A stretch of 45,688 nucleotides of DNA from an uncultured bacterium (GTDB lineage: Bacteria; Bacillota; Clostridia; Oscillospirales; Oscillospiraceae). The notes below the pieces were generated by a model. It did not search any database. It worked only from the letters and a program-made list of their open reading frames with translations, and was not told the origin of the DNA. A program made the translations under genes and the position numbers. Position 1 is the stretch's first letter; the number at the start of each line of letters is the position of its first letter. The stretch covers positions 1 to 45,688 of the forward strand of contig CAOKLO010000027.1 in assembly GCA_948469375.1 (NCBI GenBank), read 5' to 3'. Of this stretch, positions 11,065 to 45,688 are shown one piece after another.

Positions 11065-11088
11065 ATTTTAGAATTGGAGGTACATGCC

Positions 11089-12000
11089 GTGAGAACATTT
11101 GCAATTTTGAACATGAAGGGCGGCGTAGGCAAAACCACCACCGCCATCAATCTGGCCTATCTGCTGGCCGCCGAGTACCGGCAGCGGGTGCTCCTGATCG
11201 ACGCCGACCCCCAGGCCAACGCCACCCGCGCATTACTGCCCGATGGGGACTGGGCCGGGCTGGCCGGACTGCTGGGAGGCTACGCCACTGTCTACGACGA
11301 GGTGGTGGTGTCCAGCGGCATCCCCAACCTGGATGTGATCCCGGCCTCGGACGCGCTGTGGGAGATCGACCTGCGGGAGCGCACCGGGGACGGACCGCTC
11401 CACGGCACGGCCAACGCCCTGCGGGATCTTCGGGACAACGCCATGGAGGACGACGCCTACGACGTGATGGTCATCGACTGTCCGCCCAACTTCTCGGCGG
11501 CCTGCGTCGCCGCCATCAACGCCGCCAACAGCATCATCATCCCGGTGCTGCCCGACGCCTTCTCCGCCGACGGCATGGACAGTCTCACCATGCAGATCTC
11601 CGGCGTGCGCAAGCTCCACCCCGATGTGCGGGTGGCGGGGTGCCTGGTGAACCAGTGGCACCGCTCGGACGTGGTGGTGGACGCCACGGCTTACCTGCGG
11701 GAGAACGCGCCGGTGCCGGTGTTCGACACGGTGATCCGGCGGACGGACAAGGTGCTGGAGGCCACCTGGGCTCGGGAGCCGGTGCAGACCTGGAGCCCGT
11801 TCAGTTCGGCGGCGCGGGACTATCGCTCATGGGTCAAAGAACTCGTTGAAAAAGAAGGATTAAATCATGGGGCCCTCGCAAAGCCGTCCTTTGGCTTTGT
11901 GGGGAGAGGAAACGCAAGGGAGCGGGTTCCGTTTTCGCCGCAGGCGGAAACGGAACAGAGCGGACTTTGCGGCGACGAGGAGGGGCTGGGCAATGGGTAA
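11089..12000 (+). CDS. parA: ParA-family partition ATPase with an element-derived C-terminal tail
   Basis: A 303-residue protein. Deviant Walker A KGGVGKTT (residues 10-17), LLIDADPQANAT and VMVIDCPPN mark a ParA ATPase, which moves DNA over the nucleoid using ParB-like partners. GTG at 11089 is used: GGAGG precedes it by eight bases and the homology starts at RTFAILNMKGG. The natural C-terminus should lie near VKELVEKEG; from about residue 260 on the protein is translated from repeat copy A (ALAKPSFGFVGRGNARERVP and on), so the last 44 residues are not part of the fold. The stop overlaps the DUF3102 start by eight bases. A ParA in a prophage suggests a plasmid-like state or origin. Confidence 0.9.
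   Translation: MRTFAILNMKGGVGKTTTAINLAYLLAAEYRQRVLLIDADPQANATRALLPDGDWAGLAGLLGGYATVYDEVVVSSGIPNLDVIPASDALWEIDLRERTGDGPLHGTANALRDLRDNAMEDDAYDVMVIDCPPNFSAACVAAINAANSIIIPVLPDAFSADGMDSLTMQISGVRKLHPDVRVAGCLVNQWHRSDVVVDATAYLRENAPVPVFDTVIRRTDKVLEATWAREPVQTWSPFSSAARDYRSWVKELVEKEGLNHGALAKPSFGFVGRGNARERVPFSPQAETEQSGLCGDEEGLGNG
11867..11980 (+). repeat. Dispersed structured element, copy A
   Basis: Starts ATGGGGCCCTCGCAAAGCCG. Hairpin 1: GCAAAGCC and GGCTTTGT. A purine-rich stretch GGGGAGAGGAAACGCAAGGG follows. Hairpin 2: GTTCCGTTTTCGCC-GCA-GGCGGAAACGGAAC, 14 bp with one G-U. The tail reads GAGCGGACTTTGCGGCGACG. It covers the 3' end of parA and ends about 13 bases before the next ATG. Copies B (18200-18310) and C (45290-45408) share the unpaired segments while both stems differ in sequence but still pair. 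Confidence 0.8.
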
Positions 12001-13033
12001 ATTCAACCTGGCGGAGCACATCCAAAAGGCCCAGTCTGCTCAGGTTCGGGACATCGAGGTTATCACCACCGAGATCCTGGACGCCAAGCGGGCCGGGGGC
12101 GAGGCCATCCTGACCATCGGCCGGGGGCTCATCGAGGCAAAGGCGTTGCTGTCCCACGGGGAGTGGCTGCCCTGGCTGGAGGAGCGGGTGGAGTTTTCGG
12201 AGCGTTCAGCTCGAAACTTCATGAGGCTTGCGCGCGACTGGACAAATCGGCAAGCGCTTGCCGATTTGGGAGCCACGAAAGCGTTACAGCTCCTGGCCTT
12301 GCCGGAATCTGAGCGTGAGGCTTTTCTGGGCGAGACCCATGAGGTGAACGGCAAGGAGAAAACCGTCATCGACATGACCTCCCGAGAGCTGGAGGCCGCC
12401 ATCAAGGAGCGGGACGAGGCCCTGAAGGCCGCCGCCCAGGCCCAGGCGGACCAGAAGGCGGCGGACGAGGCCCGGGCGAAAATGGCTGAGGATATGCGGC
12501 TGGCCAACGAGCGGATTGCCGAGCTGAACGACCAAGTAGATTGGTATTCCGCTGATTCCATCAAGGCCCAGGATGCTGTTACTCAGTTGGAGAAGGAGTT
12601 AGCGGAGCTGAAAAGCCGCCCTGTGGACGTGGCAGTCCAGGCCGACCCCGCCGCCGTGGAGGCCGCCCGGAAAGAGGCCGAGGCGGCCATGCAAAGCAAG
12701 CTGGATGAGGTAAAGGCCGCCCAGAAAGAAGCGCAGGAGCGGGCGCTGGAGGCCAACAATGCGGCGGCCCGGACACAACGGGAGCTGAAACAGGCCCAGG
12801 CGGAGCTGGACGCCCTCCGGGCCAAGATGGCCCAGGCGGAGAAGAAGGCGGCGCTCACCTCAAGCGAGGACCTGGTGCTGTTCCGGGCGATGTTCGACCA
12901 GGTGCAGGAGCTGGCCAACAAGATGGGCGGGGTGCTGCTGAAGGTGCGGCCCAAGGATCCGGAAAAGGCCCAGGGGCTGGCCAACGCCCTCCTCGCCCTG
13001 GCCGACCAGATCAGGGAGGTGGCGCAGGCATGA
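11993..13033 (+). CDS. DUF3102-family protein, candidate ParB-like partner
   Basis: A 346-residue protein. The first 120 residues match DUF3102: ILTIGRGLIEAKALLSHGEW, LPWLEERVEFSERSARNFMR and a short hydrophobic LQLLALPESER, an HTH-containing region resembling DNA-binding parts of plasmid proteins. Residues about 125-290 form a long Ala/Glu/Lys coiled coil, and the end is helical (LANALLALADQIREVAQA). The ATG at 11993 follows GGAGGGG. It directly follows parA, and in Firmicutes elements these two families often sit together, so a role as centromere-binding partner is plausible but unproven. Confidence 0.75.
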   Translation: MGKFNLAEHIQKAQSAQVRDIEVITTEILDAKRAGGEAILTIGRGLIEAKALLSHGEWLPWLEERVEFSERSARNFMRLARDWTNRQALADLGATKALQLLALPESEREAFLGETHEVNGKEKTVIDMTSRELEAAIKERDEALKAAAQAQADQKAADEARAKMAEDMRLANERIAELNDQVDWYSADSIKAQDAVTQLEKELAELKSRPVDVAVQADPAAVEAARKEAEAAMQSKLDEVKAAQKEAQERALEANNAAARTQRELKQAQAELDALRAKMAQAEKKAALTSSEDLVLFRAMFDQVQELANKMGGVLLKVRPKDPEKAQGLANALLALADQIREVAQA

Positions 13034-13410
13034 ACGGATGGTATGAGCAGGCGGCGGAGAAGCTGAAGGCCGAGAAAAAGGCCGGGACCTACGACAGATA
13101 CGCCAAAGCCATGAAAGAAGCCGTGTGCGAGGCGCTGGACGGGTTCTGCCGCCAGGACGCCGAATTTGCCCAGGCGGTGGTCCAGGGCGGGTCATTTGAG
13201 GACTGTATGAAGGCCGTGGCCAAAAACTGCGGAAGCGCAATCTCCGACCTTGAGGTATTCCGCCGGGCGGTGCGGTTCTACTTCCCCGGCGCCGATGTGA
13301 AGTTTCATATGACGGTCAACCTCTGCGCCGACGTGGAAGCCGAGGCCGGACCTGCGGCGCGGGCGGCCGGCGCCGGCCCGAAGATCCTCGACCTTGAGGA
13401 CTTCTTGTGA
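13030..13410 (+). CDS. pcfK: PcfK-like / AcrIIA9-family protein
   Basis: A 126-residue acidic protein: YDRYAKAMKEAVCEALDGFC, GSFEDCMKAVAKNCG, ISDLEVFRRAVRFYFPGA and VKFHMTVNLC follow the PcfK-like family (named for plasmid pCF10), to which the Cas9 inhibitor AcrIIA9 belongs. PcfK proteins accompany PcfJ on conjugative elements and phages, as here. Whether this member blocks Cas9 is unknown; the family is wider than the proven inhibitors. Its ATG overlaps the previous stop. Confidence 0.75.
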   Translation: MNGWYEQAAEKLKAEKKAGTYDRYAKAMKEAVCEALDGFCRQDAEFAQAVVQGGSFEDCMKAVAKNCGSAISDLEVFRRAVRFYFPGADVKFHMTVNLCADVEAEAGPAARAAGAGPKILDLEDFL

Positions 13411-13424
13411 GGGGGGGCGGCAGG

Positions 13425-15119
13425 ATGAAACAGACAGAGGAGGACCGGGCGGTCCTGGACTCGTGGCCGGTGGTGTCCAAATCCGACATCGAGGCGCTGA
13501 ACGACCTGTTCCCGCACTATATTTTCTTCCGGGCAAGGAAGTGCGCGGCCGAATTTCACGCCAGCTGCTGCGGGCACAGGCAGACCATTTCCCATCTGCG
13601 GCGTACGGAATTTCCCTGGGAGAACAGCCTGCTCAACGCCTGCCGGCATGACCAGCCCCACACCTGCCCCTGGTGCGGCCACAAGGTGGTCATGAAGGAT
13701 CTGAGCCGGGCTGGGAAGCGGAAAAAGCTCAAAGCCTATGAGCTGGTCCTTCTGCTCCATGCCAGGGACGGCGCACTGTATGCCGACGCGCTCTGCTTGC
13801 GCAAGGAATACGAAACGGAGGAGGCTCTGACAGAAAGGCCTCAATACTGGCTGAACAGCGGATATCGCTTTGCGCTGGGCGATGTGATGGAGATCGACTA
13901 TCAGACGTTCAGCGGCGAGGGCGTTGTGACCCATGAGCGGGGACGGCTGGGCAGGAAAAAGCTGGTGCAGGAGCCGTTTAAGAGCGGAAGCCTTTCCTGG
14001 TATTCCCATGGGCCTTATGCAATTGTCAACCGGGACGCGCTGGCCGCCTGCCCCGACCTGCGGTACTGCCAGTATTTCTCGGGCTGGCAGTACCGCCCCG
14101 GAGGAGCACGGGGTTATGCCTTTCGATTCTGTGATTTTGTGTCCTACCTGACCGCGTACTGCATGTACCCCCGCCCGATAGAGATGCTGGTCAAGGCGGG
14201 CCTGTACGAGCCTGTGGCGGGCCTGGTCCATGACCGCAAAAAATTCGCCGGCGCCATCCGCTGGGAGGAGCCGGACATCCGAACGTCCATGGACCTGGAC
14301 AAGCGGGAGCTGTCCCAGCTAATCTCCCTTCACCCGCCCATGGAGGCGCTGGTCTGCCGGGCCAAGGCGAAGCGCTTGTTCGGGCTGGCGTGGGATGTGG
14401 CCGATGCGCTGGATTTTTACCAGTGTTTCGGATCCCAGGCTGACGGCATGGAGGTGCTGAGGTTTTGCAGGGAGTACAAGCTGGACCCGGAGCGGCTTTT
14501 GCGCTATATGGAGTCTCAGATGGTGGTGGACGCGGACCTGCCCTGGCTGGACATGGCGGACGTGTTTGAGCTGTACCGGGACTATCTGGACGCGGCTTAT
14601 TACCTGGGCCGCTGTCTGGAGCACGGCAAGGTGTTGTGGCCGGACGACCTGCGGCAGGCCCACGACCTCATGACGGGGCAATGGGCGGTGAGCCAGACAG
14701 AGTTGGCCGAACAACGCGGGCGGGCTCCCGAGTCGGCCAATATCCGGCGGCTGAAGTACGAGTTCGAGCTGGACGGCCTGCGGATCGTGTTCCCGATGAC
14801 GGCGGCGTCGATCAGGCGGGAGGGGAAACTGCTGAAGCACTGTGTGGGCGGCTACGCAGACCGGCACATGAAAGGGGTGCTCACCATCCTGTTCCTCCGA
14901 CGGGCGGCTGCGCCCGGCACGCCCTATGTCACCATTGAGATGCGCGGCAATCAAATCGAACAGATCCATGGCTATCAAAATGATCTCCATGGCGAGAGCC
15001 CCGGGAAGACGCACCGTGAGTTTATCAATGCCTGGCTGGGCTGGCTGAAAAAGGGCAGCAGACGCGATAAGGATGGTCGGCCGATCCTGCCCGGGAAGCG
15101 GAAAGGGGCGGCGGCGTAA
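13425..15119 (+). CDS. pcfJ: PcfJ-domain protein
   Basis: A 564-residue protein of unknown function. Near the N-terminus is a zinc-binding CxxC pair region (CPWCGHK, with Cys/His upstream). The C-terminal PcfJ domain holds the hallmark LLKHCVGGYADRHMKG (Cys-Val-Gly-Gly-Tyr), ILFLRR, PYVTIEMR and a QIHGYQND segment. The ATG at 13425 is chosen for its spacing from GGGGGGCGGCAGG; a GTG at 13407 is less likely. It forms an overlapping or adjacent unit with the PcfK-like gene. Conserved His, Cys and acidic residues suggest an enzyme, but no reaction is established. Confidence 0.8.
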   Translation: MKQTEEDRAVLDSWPVVSKSDIEALNDLFPHYIFFRARKCAAEFHASCCGHRQTISHLRRTEFPWENSLLNACRHDQPHTCPWCGHKVVMKDLSRAGKRKKLKAYELVLLLHARDGALYADALCLRKEYETEEALTERPQYWLNSGYRFALGDVMEIDYQTFSGEGVVTHERGRLGRKKLVQEPFKSGSLSWYSHGPYAIVNRDALAACPDLRYCQYFSGWQYRPGGARGYAFRFCDFVSYLTAYCMYPRPIEMLVKAGLYEPVAGLVHDRKKFAGAIRWEEPDIRTSMDLDKRELSQLISLHPPMEALVCRAKAKRLFGLAWDVADALDFYQCFGSQADGMEVLRFCREYKLDPERLLRYMESQMVVDADLPWLDMADVFELYRDYLDAAYYLGRCLEHGKVLWPDDLRQAHDLMTGQWAVSQTELAEQRGRAPESANIRRLKYEFELDGLRIVFPMTAASIRREGKLLKHCVGGYADRHMKGVLTILFLRRAAAPGTPYVTIEMRGNQIEQIHGYQNDLHGESPGKTHREFINAWLGWLKKGSRRDKDGRPILPGKRKGAAA

Positions 15120-15247
15120 TGGAACAGATTTTGAAGCCCGGTGACACTTGCCCCTGCTGCGGGCAGCCGATTTTGACCGATGACCCGGACAAGCTGATCT
15201 TGCTGAGCTGGCTGGCGTGGATGAAAGGGGAGAAATCAAAACCGTGA
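15119..15247 (+). CDS. Small CxxC zinc-knuckle peptide
   Basis: A 42-residue peptide (start MEQILKPGDTCPCCGQPI) with a C-P-C-C-G knuckle and a helical end (LILLSWLAWMKGEK). The ATG overlaps the pcfJ stop in TAATG, and the stop overlaps the GTG of the next gene. The coupling indicates real translation. Such half zinc ribbons are common in phage replication regions; no function is known. Confidence 0.6.
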   Translation: MEQILKPGDTCPCCGQPILTDDPDKLILLSWLAWMKGEKSKP

Positions 15248-15699
15248 TAAAGTATTTTTGCGATGTGTGCGGCGCGGAGACGGCCAACTGCGATAATTCT
15301 CCGTCCAGCTGGGCGGCGGAGCTGTGCGGGCTGGCGGACCTGTGCCCTCGCTGTGAGGGTCTTGTCAAAAAGGTGGATGTATCCGCCCTGGTGCGGGCGG
15401 AGCTGCGGCGGATGGTGGCGGAACAGGAGGCCCCTTCCCCGCCGGCCAATCCGCCCCCGAGCCCCAAGGGGAAAGCGGCCAGGGAGAAGCGGGATATCCT
15501 GGCGGCGGTCGAGAACTTCCGTCAGGAGCGCGGCCCCAGCGCGACCCTCACGCTGGCAAAGCTGGCCAAGGTGAGCGAAAGCGAGTTGCGGGCCATGCTC
15601 ACGTGTGAGCCGGTGCCCATCGCCACCTGGCGGAAGGTGGGCGGGGCGCTGGGGGTGGCCAGCGCCGGCGGAAATGGAGGGAGCCATGAGACCAATTGA
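15244..15699 (+). CDS. Zinc-ribbon protein with C-terminal HTH-like segment
   Basis: A 151-residue protein. CDVCGAET and LCPRCEGLV form a four-Cys zinc ribbon; a Pro-rich linker follows (EAPSPPANPPPSPKGK). The C-terminal part (DILAAVENFRQERGPSATLT, then LAKVSESELRAMLT and WRKVGGALGV) resembles an HTH. GTG at 15244, overlapping the upstream stop, is preferred. Likely a phage DNA-binding or regulatory protein. Confidence 0.6.
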   Translation: MIKYFCDVCGAETANCDNSPSSWAAELCGLADLCPRCEGLVKKVDVSALVRAELRRMVAEQEAPSPPANPPPSPKGKAAREKRDILAAVENFRQERGPSATLTLAKLAKVSESELRAMLTCEPVPIATWRKVGGALGVASAGGNGGSHETN

Positions 15700-16060
15700 C
15701 GCGGAGGCCTTGTCTGAGGGTATTGAGCTGCACCGAAAAGGGACAGACCAGGAATGTGAATCGGACCGTCAATGGGCGGTGGGCTATAATGCCGGGCTGG
15801 ACCGTGCGCTCTATAGCATTGCATACGCCAAGACTGTTTGTCTCCAGTCCAGCGAACCCCTGACTCTGGAGGAACTGCGGGAGATGGACGGGGAGCCTGT
15901 ATGGTATGTATTCCCCGGCGCCGATACGCTGACCTCCGCAGGCGGATTTTTCTGTCTCTGCTGCAAGGGTGAGATTATCGGCCCCAGCGGGCACAGCTTT
16001 GACTGCGCGCTCCTCGATGGGAGATTCTACCGCCGCAGGCCGGAGGAGGGAAAGCCATGA
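15686..16060 (+). CDS. Hypothetical phage protein (MRPIDAE type)
   Basis: A 124-residue protein beginning MRPIDAEALSEGIE, the start of many small Firmicutes phage proteins, followed by DRQWAVGYNAGLDRALYSIA and a beta-rich C-terminus (GEPVWYVFPG, then GGFFCLCCKGEIIG) with one Cys pair. GGAGGGA precedes the ATG. Function unknown. Confidence 0.6.
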   Translation: MRPIDAEALSEGIELHRKGTDQECESDRQWAVGYNAGLDRALYSIAYAKTVCLQSSEPLTLEELREMDGEPVWYVFPGADTLTSAGGFFCLCCKGEIIGPSGHSFDCALLDGRFYRRRPEEGKP

Positions 16061-16293
16061 ATATCTTATGCAGCCGATGCGGGGCAAGCAAGGAGTTCCG
16101 GTACAGCGCCGGTAATGTCCTCTGCACCGTCTACACCCAGGGTTGGCGCAGCTACGGCTCGGCGCTTTACTGCCCGGAGTGCGCTTCGACCTGGGACGAG
16201 CGGAATAAGGACAGGCCGCTGCCCGGGCCAGAGGCCACCGTCTCGCTGATCGACTATTACCACCTGTCCAGCAAGAGGAAATACCATCTATGA
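16057..16293 (+). CDS. Small zinc-ribbon protein
   Basis: A 78-residue protein: ILCSRCGASKEF and ALYCPECASTW supply two CxxC pairs of a zinc ribbon. Overlaps the previous stop by four bases (ATGA), and its own stop overlaps the ATG at 16290. Function unknown. Confidence 0.65.
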   Translation: MNILCSRCGASKEFRYSAGNVLCTVYTQGWRSYGSALYCPECASTWDERNKDRPLPGPEATVSLIDYYHLSSKRKYHL

Positions 16294-17007
16294 ATATGAG
16301 GCCGATTTTGTTTAACGCCCCCCATGGTTCGCGCCATCCTGGAGGGCCGCAAGACGGTGACGCGGCGGGTGATCAAAGCGCCGTATTACATCGACGAAAA
16401 AGTCCTCTCGCCTGAATCTGGGCTTTGCCTGCGCCGCGGGACCAATATAACAGGCGGTATGCCGTATGCGGACAGCCCCTACCACCCCGGCGACATCCTG
16501 TATGTGCGGGAGACTTTCAAAATTGACTACCTATCCAACATTCCGGGATCCGGGCGCATCTTCTACAAAGCAGACGGCGCATATAGTGATTTTTCTTTTT
16601 CGCCTGCTCGCTACGATATGATGAGGCGGGCGCAGCTCAAGCCAGGATGGAGGCCAAATGAAAACATGCCCCGCGAGGCGGCGCGTATCTTCCTGCGGGT
16701 GACGGAGGTGCGGGTGGAGAGGTTGCGAGGATCATTCTTTCAGTGCGGACCCACGATTATCCAATTGCAAAAAGAAGGCGTTGATATTGGGGAGCAGTGC
16801 CGGGAGTGTATCGAAGCCTACGGAAGCCCCTGTTGCCTTGACAGCGAAAGCGAGTGCGGCATGCTGGACGAGGTGCGCAGTAGTTTTTCTGATTTGTGGG
16901 ACAGCACAATCAGGCCTGGTATCCGAGCTCTCTATGGCTGGGGGGGCAATCCCTGGGTGTGGGTCATCGAATTTGAGCGGTACGAGAAGTCGGAGGCCGC
17001 CCCATGA
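16290..17007 (+). pseudogene. ASCH-domain-like phage protein with a +1 frameshift at a C-run near its start
   Basis: The family normally starts MRPILFNAPMVRAILEGRKT. Here an ATG at 16290, coupled by ATGA to the previous stop, gives MNMRPILFNAP and then leaves frame because the run at 16318-16323 has six C's; five would restore NAPMVRAILEG. The rest is intact (227 residues from ATG 16324): MVRAILEGRKTVTRRVIKAP, YHPGDILYVRET, RIFLRVTEVRVERL and a GWGGNPWVWVIEFER end, matching ASCH-like RNA-binding folds of phage proteins. Either the internal ATG is used, giving an N-terminally shortened product, or slippage on the C-run restores the frame, or this is a sequencing error. Confidence 0.65.
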
Positions 17008-17174
17008 GCCGCCTAGTGCTGACCATCGCGGTGGATAACGCCACGCCAGGCAAGGCCATCGGCATCAAAGAGGCCATCGCCATGGATCTGGAGGAGAAGT
17101 ACGGCGACGTGCGGGTGCTCCAAGTGGAGGTTCAGGGCGATGAACAAATGAGTTTTGACAGGAGAGTGGTCTAG
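17004..17174 (+). CDS. Small hypothetical protein
   Basis: A 56-residue protein starting MSRLVLTIAVDNATPGKAIG and ending QMSFDRRVV. Its ATGA overlaps the previous stop and its own last base starts the next gene's GTG, so it belongs to the same coupled operon. Alternating strand-helix-strand pattern, no recognised family. Confidence 0.55.
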   Translation: MSRLVLTIAVDNATPGKAIGIKEAIAMDLEEKYGDVRVLQVEVQGDEQMSFDRRVV

Positions 17175-17398
17175 TGGAGGAAAGAACGGCAAAGCGTATC
17201 GTCATTGAGTACGAGGACGCGCCCACGCGGGAGATATCCAAAGGGTTCGTGGCCCAATTTACCGAAAATGAGGAGGATGACACAATCACATCTACCTTCG
17301 ACATGGTGGGCATGTCCGGGAAGGACCTGGAGATGATGGTGCTCAGCATCATTCAGCTCGGCATGAAGCTGGGCCTGTTCGGGAAGGAGTATCAATAG
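17174..17398 (+). CDS. Small hypothetical acidic protein
   Basis: A 74-residue acidic protein (GTG start, AGGAGA upstream), with a beta-rich first half (KRIVIEYEDA, KGFVAQFTENEEDDTITSTF) and a helical end (LEMMVLSIIQLGMKLGLFGK). No recognised family. Its stop abuts the ATG of the Rep-like gene. Confidence 0.55.
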   Translation: MEERTAKRIVIEYEDAPTREISKGFVAQFTENEEDDTITSTFDMVGMSGKDLEMMVLSIIQLGMKLGLFGKEYQ

Positions 17399-18292
17399 AT
17401 GGCCCGGGCAATCAAGCACATCAAGGCGGGGCTGCTGAACATTGAGGTCATCGGGACCATCCCGGAGCATGAGCCGGGGCGGCGGCGGGGAGGCCGCTGC
17501 CGCCCCACCTGTCCGGCGATGCAGTTTTACAATGACAAGCGCTCCTGGCGGGAGGTGGAGCTGTGGCTGGCCGCCAACTTTGGGAGGCATGACTTCGTTT
17601 ACACGCTGACCTACGACGACGCCCACCTTCCGCCGGATAAAAAAGCGGCCGGGAAATGCTACCAGAAATTTATTGCAAAGCTCCGTGCGGTGCGAAAGCG
17701 GCGGAAGGAAGTACTTCTCTATCTTTATGTTACGGAAGGCTGGCATGGGAGCTCAGCCAACCGGCACTTTGCCGGAGACGGCCTGCTGGAGAACCGGAGG
17801 CTGCACCACCATGTCGTGCTGAACAGTATCGGCCCGGGGGACTTTGAGGAGATCCGCAGCCTGTGGGAATCTGTGGGCGGGGGCTATATCCGGGCGGAGC
17901 CGGTGGACGTGCATTACTACCGGGAGCTGGCCAAGTACCTGACCAAAGAGGCCCGGGAGTTCGGACGGGCCAAGCCCGGGGAGCGGACCTGGAACAAGAG
18001 CCGGAACCTCAAGGAGTATGACGTAGAGTACATCGAGATCCCAAGCGACAGCGTGACGCTCTCGCCTCCGCCAGGCGCGGTAGACTATGTGCAGTTCTCG
18101 GAAAAGAACCCGTTTGGGTTTGCAGACTGCATCGGCGCACGGTATCTGCTCTTCGAGGAAGCCTCTGTTCCGCAGTACAGCTATACAACGGGGCGAAAAA
18201 TGGGGCCCCCGCAAAACCGCCCTTCAGGTTTTGTGGGGAAAGGAGGAGCAAGGGAGCGGAATGAGGAATGCCCGAAGGGCGTTTCGAATTGA
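17399..18292 (+). CDS. HUH-type rolling-circle Rep-like protein with an element-derived tail
   Basis: A 297-residue protein: DFVYTLTYDDAHLP is Rep motif 1, RRLHHHVVLN the HUH metal-binding motif 2, and YYRELAKYLTKEAREFG motif 3 with the likely Tyr nucleophile. Such proteins nick DNA for rolling-circle replication or serve phages in an unclear role. The N-terminus is basic with a Cys (GRRRGGRCRP). From about residue 267 the sequence is translated from repeat copy B (PPQNRPSGFVGKGGARERNE), so the last 30 residues are element-derived, like the ParA tail. Confidence 0.75.
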   Translation: MARAIKHIKAGLLNIEVIGTIPEHEPGRRRGGRCRPTCPAMQFYNDKRSWREVELWLAANFGRHDFVYTLTYDDAHLPPDKKAAGKCYQKFIAKLRAVRKRRKEVLLYLYVTEGWHGSSANRHFAGDGLLENRRLHHHVVLNSIGPGDFEEIRSLWESVGGGYIRAEPVDVHYYRELAKYLTKEAREFGRAKPGERTWNKSRNLKEYDVEYIEIPSDSVTLSPPPGAVDYVQFSEKNPFGFADCIGARYLLFEEASVPQYSYTTGRKMGPPQNRPSGFVGKGGARERNEECPKGVSN

Positions 18293-18310
18293 GCGGACTT
18301 TGCGACGACG
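18200..18310 (+). repeat. Dispersed structured element, copy B
   Basis: Starts ATGGGGCCCCCGCAAAACCG. Hairpin 1: GCAAAACC and GGTTTTGT. Purine stretch GGGGAAAGGAGGAGCAAGGG, then AGCGG. Hairpin 2: GGAATGCCC-GAA-GGGCGTTTC (9 bp, two G-U). Tail GAGCGGACTTTGCGACGACG. It begins inside and ends 18 bases beyond the 3' end of the Rep-like gene. Conserved bases match copy A; stem bases differ but still pair. Confidence 0.8.
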
Positions 18311-18382
18311 CGCTATACGTCCGGCAGAACACGAAAATAGAACACTCCTAATAATTTTTGAGCTTGAAACCAATCATAATAA

Positions 18383-44997: not shown

Positions 44998-45154
44998 GCG
45001 ACTAAAAGCAGAAAACAGCGAAAGTTCAGAACAATATGAAGTCATTTACAAAATAAGGATGCGTAAAATAAAAATAACGCGCCGGAGATGCAAATCCGCC
45101 GGATTTGGGAGGTTTTGGGAATACGCATGACTCGAACTCCCCAGCGTTCAAAAA

Positions 45155-45211
45155 GCAAAAAGGCCGTCCGCAGCCTGCCAGTTTTCAAGGCAGACCTGTG
45201 GGCGGCCTTTT
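45155..45211 (+). terminator. Hairpin terminator in the right flank
   Basis: AAAAAGGCCG near 45155 pairs with CGGCCTTTTT near 45202, with an inner CTGCC/GGCAG stem. It follows about 110 bases with no gene; the upstream transcript is unknown. Confidence 0.6.
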
Positions 45212-45239
45212 TCATTTCCAGACTGTTCACATTGGTAGT

Positions 45240-45353
45240 TATGTCTGAACGCCAAGGGCTACGAACGCCTTGTAGGCCAGTTGTCGCGGGCTTCGGGAAC
45301 CCAAGCGAAGCCCAGCGCAGCGGGTTCGCTTGGGAGAGGAGGAGCAAGGGAGT
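45240..45353 (+). pseudogene. C-terminal remnant of a partition-type gene (ParM/StbA-like?), running into element copy C
   Basis: In the frame beginning at 45243, LNAKGYERLVGQLSRASGTQ then AKPSAAGSLGRGGARECA and a stop. NAKGYE is a C-terminal motif of ParM/StbA actin-like proteins, and the following gene resembles its usual partner. Only the end of the gene remains; it begins abruptly after a terminator, so a deletion or insertion removed the rest. The call is tentative. Confidence 0.3.
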
Positions 45354-45408
45354 GTGCGTAGTTTTCGCCAGTCGGCGGAAACGGAGCAAAACGGACTTTG
45401 CGATGACG
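45290..45408 (+). repeat. Dispersed structured element, copy C
   Basis: Hairpin 1: CCCAAGCGAA and TTCGCTTGGG with further GCCC/GGG pairs. Purine stretch GGGAGAGGAGGAGCAAGGGA. Hairpin 2: GTTTTCGCC and GGCGGAAAC. Tail CGGACTTTGCGATGACG. It ends three bases before the next ATG and lies outside the prophage, in a different mobile-element relic. Confidence 0.75.
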
Positions 45409-45410
45409 AT

Positions 45411-45688
45411 ATGACCGAGAAAAGGCGGGTGAACCTCTCGCTCAACCTCTCCGCGCCCCACCAGCGGGAGGCGTGGGGCATCATCCGCGCCATCCCCGCT
45501 GGGCAGCGGACGGACGCTGTGTGCCGGATGATCTGCAAGGGCCACAGGCGGGACGGGCTGCTGGAGGAGATCCGCGCGGTCGTTCGGGAGGAACTGCGCG
45601 GCGTGGAATTTGTCCCAGCAAAAGAAAAACCAAAGCAGCCGCAGGGGGCCGGGGACTTGGATGACAATGTCCTCGGCTTTCTGCTTGC
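45411..45688 (+). CDS. Small partition-type (ParR-like?) protein, cut by window end
   Basis: At least 92 residues with no stop before the window end: MTEKRRVNLSLNLSAPHQRE, AWGIIRAIPAGQRTDAVCRM, EEIRAVVREELRGVEFVPAK, then AGDLDDNVLGFLLA. The start is an RHH-like strand plus helices, and the protein type is found downstream of ParM-like genes in clostridial integrative elements, so a ParR-like centromere-binding role is inferred. No strong ribosome site precedes the ATG; the structured element lies there instead. Confidence 0.5.
   Translation, partial: MTEKRRVNLSLNLSAPHQREAWGIIRAIPAGQRTDAVCRMICKGHRRDGLLEEIRAVVREELRGVEFVPAKEKPKQPQGAGDLDDNVLGFLL

Follow-up and report, generated by a model that had tools for sequence, protein, structure and literature searches.

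The stretch of DNA analysed here, hereafter the window, comprises 45,688 nt from an uncultured Oscillospiraceae bacterium (contig CAOKLO010000027.1 of assembly GCA_948469375.1) and carries three copies of a structured element of approximately 110 bp, all on the + strand, at 11866-11981, 18199-18314, and 45292-45412. A preliminary description based on the window alone had proposed these copies, and a covariance model (CM) recovered them with E values of 9.6e-22, 3.8e-24, and 2.0e-26, respectively, the last being the best match in its own genome. Copy 1 consists of the P1 hairpin, a purine stretch, the P2 hairpin, CGGACTTTGC, and then the right end GGCGACGA at 11978. P1, a purine-rich stretch of the GAGAGGAGGAGCAAGGGAG type, P2, the conserved CGGACTTTGC, and a GACGACGA-like end were found in all three copies, and the right ends of copies 2 and 3 were GACGACGC at 18311 and GATGACGA at 45409. 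The common purine stretch and CGGACTTTGC..GACG tail, with two hairpins that diverge in sequence yet still pair, were as first described. The single-copy fold z-scores of the three window copies were -3.8, -4.8, and -3.3.

Copy 1 lies at the end of an open reading frame (ORF) for a ParA-type ATPase (11074-12000, +; Pfam AAA_31/CbiA), which gains the tail GFVGRGNARER... by read-through into the element. In the element-free phage relative L327 (65% identity to ParA), the ParA end occurs once and overlaps the next gene, whereas in the window it occurs twice, around copy 1. Sequence inspection and comparison with L327 placed the left copy of this end (E-G-L-N-H-G, without a stop) at 11854-11871 (+), and the displaced right copy (E-G-L-G-N-G-stop), compared with GAGGGCCTGAACCGTGGGTAA of L327, at 11980-12000 (+). 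The right copy overlaps the start of the next gene, which encodes a DUF3102 protein (11993-13033, +) and whose ATG at 11993 is preserved within it. Copy 2 is arranged likewise at the end of the Rep ORF (17399-18292, +; Pfam REP_ORF2-G2P; tail GFVGKGGARER...). The Rep end occurs once in the element-free relative L407 (79% identity over the matched part) and twice in the window: as a left copy (GCTATACAACGGGGCGAAAA, without a stop) at 18180-18199 (+) and as the displaced end (Y-T-S-G-R-T-R-K-stop) at 18312-18340 (+), after which the sequence resembles the downstream sequence in L407. Around copy 3 (45292-45412), a duplication was looked for and none was detected; a start codon follows its right end, at 45411.

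Because the left copies in ParA and Rep have no stop, the ORFs run on into the element and acquire shared C-terminal tails. Stops are rare in the element (mean of 1.86 open forward frames versus 0.87 after shuffling), so the read-through tails resemble each other. These shared tails are a by-product of read-through where the copied tail lacks a stop. The preliminary description had each copy covering the 3' end of an ORF in frame; this holds for copy 1 read from ParA and copy 2 read from Rep but not for the family. With upstream ORFs of at least 100 codons, the upstream stop lay inside the element in 13 of 137 copies, compared with 131 of 685 random positions, and within the 30 nt preceding it in 29 of 137 copies, compared with 37 of 685. 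The third ORF (45088-45414), formerly called a ParM-like remnant, had no Pfam match to E 0.01, leaving that name unsupported.

Hundreds of matches were found beyond the three copies, with their pairing kept, so the outcome that the preliminary description named as refuting, a lack of more copies or of kept pairing, did not arise. In its own genome, the CM gave 32 matches at E ≤ 0.1, 30 of them below 1e-5. Matches at E ≤ 0.001 were present in 37 of 60 genomes, comprising 33 of the 37 genomes of the genus (own genome included) and only 4 of 23 from elsewhere in the order; genus genomes held up to 50 matches each among the best 60 scored candidates per genome. All 12 further genomes, mainly isolates, carried 5-50 copies each at E ≤ 1e-5. 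A motif scan of viral contigs returned 26 stretches, of which L024-L026 are chance matches judging by sequence. The corresponding scan of named genomes returned at least 118, with record titles mainly from Oscillospiraceae (Flavonifractor, Pseudoflavonifractor, Intestinimonas, Oscillibacter, and Lawsonibacter); a few come from other groups and look like chance. As both scans used the exact core motif, the invariance of GCAAGGGAG and CGGACTTTGC is partly built in. In Rfam searches, curated cut-offs gave only tRNAs in the window, and nothing matched the surroundings of copy 1 up to E 5. At E ≤ 0.5, another eight loci yielded one tRNA, one T-box, and two weak matches; the weak match Collinsella-1 (E 0.21, L209:847-1034 +) overlaps one element edge on the opposite strand. 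No description of the element was found in the titles and abstract openings of the open-access literature, which leaves subscription papers mostly outside.

Some copies depart from the common form. A second RNA subtype (GAGGACGAGCAGCGGAATG ... GGAGCTTGTGAGGACGA), with a P1 of the same style, was seen in L172, L071, L022, and L039:2203-2321. Tandem copies occur in L130, L079, and G070:C9:239933-240498, with units of about 116, 138, and 222 bp. In G020 (L191-L202), similar copies stand between two more dispersed repeat modules, the left of the GCCGGGTCTCGTCCCGGC type and the right of the GTTTCGCC..GGCGACCTACTTTC type.

In an alignment of 22 copies, RNAalifold gave 24 pairs, 16 with compensatory changes. 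Fold statistics were computed for 141 matches from 100 chosen loci, whose alignment was fitted to the model, which favours structure. Standard pairs filled 96.4% of 3288 cells, versus 75.3% in shuffled and 42-50% in slid alignments, and 22 of the 24 pairs had changes on both sides. The covariation score was 0.583, versus 0.190 for shuffled and at most 0.148 for slid alignments, and lay above all 500 shuffles, bearing out the covariation noted from the three window copies. GU cells numbered 312 and AC cells 38; the two most GU-rich pairs hold 171 GU cells, and without these two pairs the counts were 141 and 37. Tandem G.A/A.G oppositions between the outermost G-C pairs were observed in 128 and 125 of the 141 copies, and the position one step further in has G.A/A.G in 84 of 141, or else Watson-Crick pairs. 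Such tandem oppositions are expected of tandem sheared pairs in RNA. Thus, the + strand is the strand that folds, as RNA.

The right end of the element is fixed at GACGA|, and a logo downstream of the core in 162 copies read CGACG, then A, C, or T, then GG. When 200 nt on each side of the element were compared, 38 of 140 copies had a direct repeat across the element above the 99th percentile of 400 mismatched-pair controls. The right repeat began exactly 8 nt after CTTTGC in 18 of these 38 and at most 2 nt off that in 6 more; 14 start away from the boundary, some being tandem elements or other repeats. At the protein level, 35 of 136 flank comparisons were above the 99th percentile of 300 controls. 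Stricter settings left 30 pairs starting at the boundary among the 162 copies. Examined by eye, 23 of these pairs were gene 3' ends, two were a lepA-like 5' end in reverse orientation, and five (L022, L077, L114, L120, and L130) were neither. In the reverse insertions (L071 and L172; gene named by eye), the duplicate includes the ribosome-binding site and the first codons.

At gene ends, the order is gene body, left copy of the end, in places a spacer, P1, core, GACGA, right copy, and native downstream sequence, the last in places with a terminator-like hairpin. These inserts measure roughly 140-260 nt and therefore leave no room for a homing endonuclease ORF. The insertion site is of the type T|GG and, in clear protein-gene cases, lies about 9-33 codons before the stop, the copied end there mostly including the stop. 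The base before the junction was T in 18 of the 23 gene-end pairs and in 23 of 30 in the whole boundary set. Other insertions lie next to a gene, tmRNA, or tRNA end. Host genes identified by NCBIfam were recR, tpiA, groEL, eno, ychF, and flagellin, and pgk was recognised by a match to a fusion model in its kinase part. NCBIfam gave no match for the targets of L081, L128, and L164. Host names are from NCBIfam or Pfam where given, L207 and other partners being matched to named genes by sequence only, and SepF, SpoVAC, lepA, smpB, csrA, the flagellin beside tldR, and Avd were named by reading sequences.

The left and right copies differ mainly at silent positions. Codon differences in the 23 gene-end pairs were synonymous in 52 cases and not in 8, with 7, 9, and 50 mismatches at the three codon positions, although the set includes three recR orthologues and a pair of junctions from L122, so that its members lack independence, and one pair has no assigned frame. 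Leaving out L214 and L215, the counts were 45 to 8; in the whole boundary set of 30, they were 56 synonymous and 17 other. Over positions 1-12, the right copy had 3.3% mismatches, against 9-10% further on, and the right copies of L121 and L182 were broken or shortened. No convincing kb-sized, cargo-bearing version emerged from distant partner repeats among the loci examined. At L016/L017, a copy lies directly upstream of an apparent template repeat of a diversity-generating retroelement (DGR), after an Avd-like ORF; by reading of this locus, a DGR link was rejected and the copy was taken as a gene-end insertion.

In 14 of 31 duplications, the stretch that separates the left copy from P1 holds, in reverse complement, the sequence straddling the insertion point. 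These segments are 12-27 nt long with some mismatches, all 14 span the junction, and their ends lie immediately 5' of P1, at 40-69 nt from the core. Their scores were 12-18, versus at most 8 in the other 17 duplications, the 99th percentile of 600 controls being 10. The 14 cases represent 11 different junctions, as tpiA, one pgk junction, and the gene of L081/L132 are each counted twice. Between L081 and L132, the antisense segment and the element are conserved, whereas the surrounding spacer has largely diverged. A simple short target duplication was rejected, since it leaves the antisense and the mainly synonymous differences unexplained.

Occupied and empty forms of the same site were compared for recR and pgk. 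Among 30 recR loci, whole-occupied-locus matches were obtained in G000, G022, G023, and G016 and remnants in G028 and G029; the other 24 have a single gene end and no element in the stretch compared. Degenerate recR copies are found in L217 and L218. For pgk, also with 30 loci, G018 and G036 are occupied at one junction and G020 at another, G061 has a degenerate copy, and most of the remaining loci have a single gene end. The exact boundary, the empty sites, and the degenerate copies together indicate an inserted element that can be lost. The identical base was hit in different genomes in tpiA (L112/L122), groEL (L161/L207), pgk (L193/L139), recR (L001/L067), and the gene of L081/L132. In the recR pair, the element together with its immediate junctions has only one mismatch over about 137 nt, against visible divergence in the coding sequence around it. 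At the orthologous recR site, changes in P2 keep the pairing.

Two further arrangements were seen at pgk. In L455 (G022), two pgk tail ends lie about 12 nt apart, which looks like an excision or deletion footprint. In L432 (G006), L434, L436, and L440, an unrelated hairpin-rich element appears by eye between a copied pgk end and a second pgk end, and it also has GCGCCGCC, the antisense of the junction (by eye). L432 and L436 look identical over about 150 nt, and the second end has deletions in L434 and L440. With an unrelated element behind a copied pgk end, gene-tail duplication is not confined to one RNA family.

Taken together, we regard the insertion, the RNA fold, the fixed right end, and the gene-tail duplication as established with high confidence. 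A small mobile repeat targeting gene ends and a structured RNA, offered as alternatives in the preliminary description, are both supported, and for the same object. Our preferred reading, to which we assign a probability of roughly 40%, is a non-autonomous, guide-bearing homing element whose working form would be the folded + strand RNA. It is the simplest single reading of the arrangement, which is like that of fungal mobile ORFs (mORFs), together with the junction antisense. In such a mechanism, the antisense segment would serve as a guide by pairing with target sequence on both sides of the junction, the site would be opened by a trans-acting nuclease or recombinase, and repair of the break would use as template a copy of that gene already carrying the element. 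The element would thereby home to one constant site in other strains and species, bringing its own gene tail. A narrower form is tentative and rather unlikely: that the ~110-nt RNA is guided to a core-gene junction (pgk, tpiA, eno, or groEL), that a trans nuclease cuts element-free alleles, and that repair copies in the RNA gene with a functional replacement end, as an RNA-guided homing system with a rescue tail. If true, this would be the same arrangement as in designed homing gene drives with recoded rescue, evolved independently in an element without a protein gene.

Several observations weigh against homing. A boundary-starting duplication was found in only about 30 of 162 copies, five of them away from gene ends, and 17 of 31 duplications have no detectable antisense segment, with variable length in the rest. 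In several loci (L081, L132, and L182), the left and right copies are equal, which restores the target site and leaves no obvious bar to renewed attack. In the four occupied recR genomes, the right copies differ at 0-2 of 27 positions and the left copies at 2-6; a dead remnant would not be expected to stay so well conserved. These right copies may owe their likeness to gene conversion with alleles that lack the element, or to a function as recognition sequence. The high identity of the element between species could alternatively come from selection on the RNA. In a tRNA-end subfamily, the place of the gene tail is taken in several copies by a conserved left end of the T|GGAAGGGGCGGTTAAAATCGATATTTCT type. 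Finally, searches with RVT_1, PF07282, and PF01797 found no nuclease or recombinase partner, serine recombinases not being searched.

The tRNA-end subfamily also bears on the main rival, a hairpin-ended DNA element similar to miniature inverted-repeat transposable elements (MITEs) or repetitive extragenic palindromes (REPs). Such an element would move either in single-stranded form or through a trans-acting serine-type recombinase (IS200/IS605-, RAYT-, or IS607-like). Transposase would then act at the hairpins, the antisense would be a DNA guide to where the left end is cleaved, and the gene tail would be either cargo or a target duplication of unusual length. Eleven of 162 copies lie within a few bases of the 3' CCA ends of oppositely oriented tRNA or tmRNA genes (0.075 expected); nine abut directly, and all 11 have the 3' end facing them. 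Their core is mostly longer and ends in TCCGACG. Several of these copies chain head to tail with other small units having the same left end, and the ~215-bp tRNA subfamily has T|GG at both ends. The T|GG ends, the missing gene tail, and the head-to-tail accretion at tRNA ends all suit a DNA element, and recognition by structure would give covariation too. Against this, the conserved GU pairs and the GU:AC ratio of 312:38 point to RNA. Sixteen genus genomes hold at least 20 matches, but metagenome-assembled genomes (MAGs) are incomplete and absence from a MAG is weak evidence. PF01797 (Y1) was present in 13 of 37 genus genomes and, among the 16 element-rich ones, only in G020 and G024, and the Y1 transposase was rejected as the mover for being mostly absent from element-rich genomes. 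None of the 45 largest ORF clusters near 158 copies reads as a transposase, although serine recombinases were not searched. We consider a DNA element possible but improbable. Small units with a common left end and differing right ends (hairpin types) were also seen in L304, L310, L317, L293, L295, L298, L311, and L316, with TGG at junctions, some in arrays and several ending at tRNA 3' ends.

A retroposon like a short interspersed element (SINE) would insert by target-primed reverse transcription from the RNA 3' end GACGA, leaving target duplications of about 25-100 nt. This would account for the fixed 3' boundary, the variable 5' part, the RNA-type covariation, and the copies L004, L009, and L010, from which P1 is apparently absent. 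However, RVT_1 (PF00078) was missing from 6 of the 16 element-rich genus genomes, from 16 of all 37 (among them G020, which has 41 matches), and from 4 of 12 other genomes with 6-31 copies each; four of the RVT_1-negative genomes are named cultured strains. A reverse transcriptase was therefore rejected as the mover, being dispensable and absent from several element-rich genomes, and the junction antisense before P1 would be left unexplained. Retroposition is accordingly a reading to which we give little weight. In the element-rich G018 and G034, RVT_1, PF07282, and PF01797 were all missing; the mover may be none of the resident genes, or most of the copies may be old.

Alternatively, the element may be a cis-acting RNA under selection, serving mRNA 3'-end protection, processing, or intergenic termination, with the duplications as incidental recombination scars. 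The position at gene ends, the conservation of the element where the spacer has diverged (L081/L132), and the pairing-preserving P2 changes at the orthologous recR site all fit. But the exact boundary, the empty sites, the insertions facing tRNA 3' ends, the reverse insertion at the lepA-like 5' end, and the degenerate recR copies (L217 and L218) do not, and we doubt this explanation strongly. Nothing observed suggests coupling or processing between genes, at which no test was aimed.

Still less probable is a small intron, in which the antisense would be an internal guide for both exons, the 5' exon would end in U, and splicing would join the gene to the right copy, with one and the same protein encoded by either tail. 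A T precedes the junction in 18 of the 23 gene-end pairs, and this would be in line with an intron, as would the synonymous bias, the conserved recR right copies, and a guide geometry resembling the internal guide sequence of group I introns. However, broken or shortened right copies (L121 and L182) show that splicing is not needed, for which reason splicing as a general rule was rejected; moreover, the core is too small for group I or II and has no Rfam match, and the partner of the U is A rather than G in those antisense segments that were read.

The weakest candidate, a stand-alone omega or guide RNA of TnpB or TldR with the right copy as its 3' guide, draws on target-matching sequence after the boundary, with the best agreement in the first 12 nt (3.3% versus 9-10% mismatch), and on the element directly 3' of tldR in L039, L042, L244, L245, and L253, but the sister tldR loci L243, L246, L248-L252, and L254-L256 have no element directly after the gene, so its place beside five tldR genes reflects insertion, and we rejected this highly improbable explanation. 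Of the 19 PF07282 loci, 16 are TldR-like, with GLKYS replacing the first RuvC aspartate motif; of the other three, the one in G012 keeps the aspartate, the one in G026 is fragmentary, and the one in G020 is a weak match inside an unrelated ORF. PF07282 was not over the cut-off in 6 of 16 element-rich genus genomes and was over it in only 2 of 24 others. The GLKYS proteins of the csrA-tldR-flagellin-type loci (L039, L042, and L243-L256) match the csrA-associated TldRs in the part of PMC13418256 consulted.

If the homing reading is right, a tiny non-coding element could invade essential genes harmlessly, as it brings a reserve end for the gene together with a duplicate of its own address. Should the antisense guide insertion, an unrecognised RNA-guided nuclease or recombinase system would exist in common gut bacteria, found here from the RNA side. 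The guide aside, hundreds of conserved copies alter how gene ends, C-terminal tails, and tRNA flanks are to be read in Oscillospiraceae and their phages. With insertions at glycolytic and chaperone genes, the mechanism is testable in cultured isolates.

Every known family tested fails at least one defining feature, suggesting a new class, although an unfound transposase could still place the element in a known one. REP/RAYT and MITE-type bacterial repeats are short, dispersed, hairpin-rich, and non-coding. The element shares all of these properties but differs in its fixed 3' end with gene-tail duplication, in its junction antisense, and in the lack of Y1 in 14 of 16 element-rich genus genomes. 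The internal guide sequence of group I introns pairs across the insertion point, with U before it. Unlike such introns, the element has no group I core that could be found, its U pairs with A, it carries a tail with a stop, and its right copy is sometimes broken. With the TnpB omega RNA and the IS200/IS605 gene drive, as outlined in the part of PMC11870625 consulted, it shares a structured RNA whose 3' boundary abuts the target, and a selfish insertion bias is possible. It differs in that no active-type tnpB adjoins the RNA in the loci read, TnpB is missing from many carriers, and a gene tail is carried. The csrA-associated TldR guide RNAs of Oscillibacter and relatives, to judge from the same portion of PMC13418256, come from the same bacterial group, and the element adjoins several of their loci; there, however, it is an insertion downstream of tldR, missing from sister loci.

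The closest parallel is with the mORFs of fungal mitochondria that carry foreign gene tails, described for atp6 of Allomyces and for atp6, atp9, cox2, and nad3 of Glomus (PMC3630166, seen in excerpt). According to that excerpt, the order there is also a native gene body, an inserted C-terminal segment, a mobile segment, and a displaced native C-terminal segment, and the tails likewise differ much in DNA and little in protein. Unlike these mORFs, as far as the excerpt describes them, the element has no homing endonuclease ORF, is a structured RNA of about 110 nt with junction antisense in 14 of 31 duplications, and is bacterial and multi-copy. In the homing reading, the RNA would stand where the fungal mitochondrial elements have an endonuclease gene.

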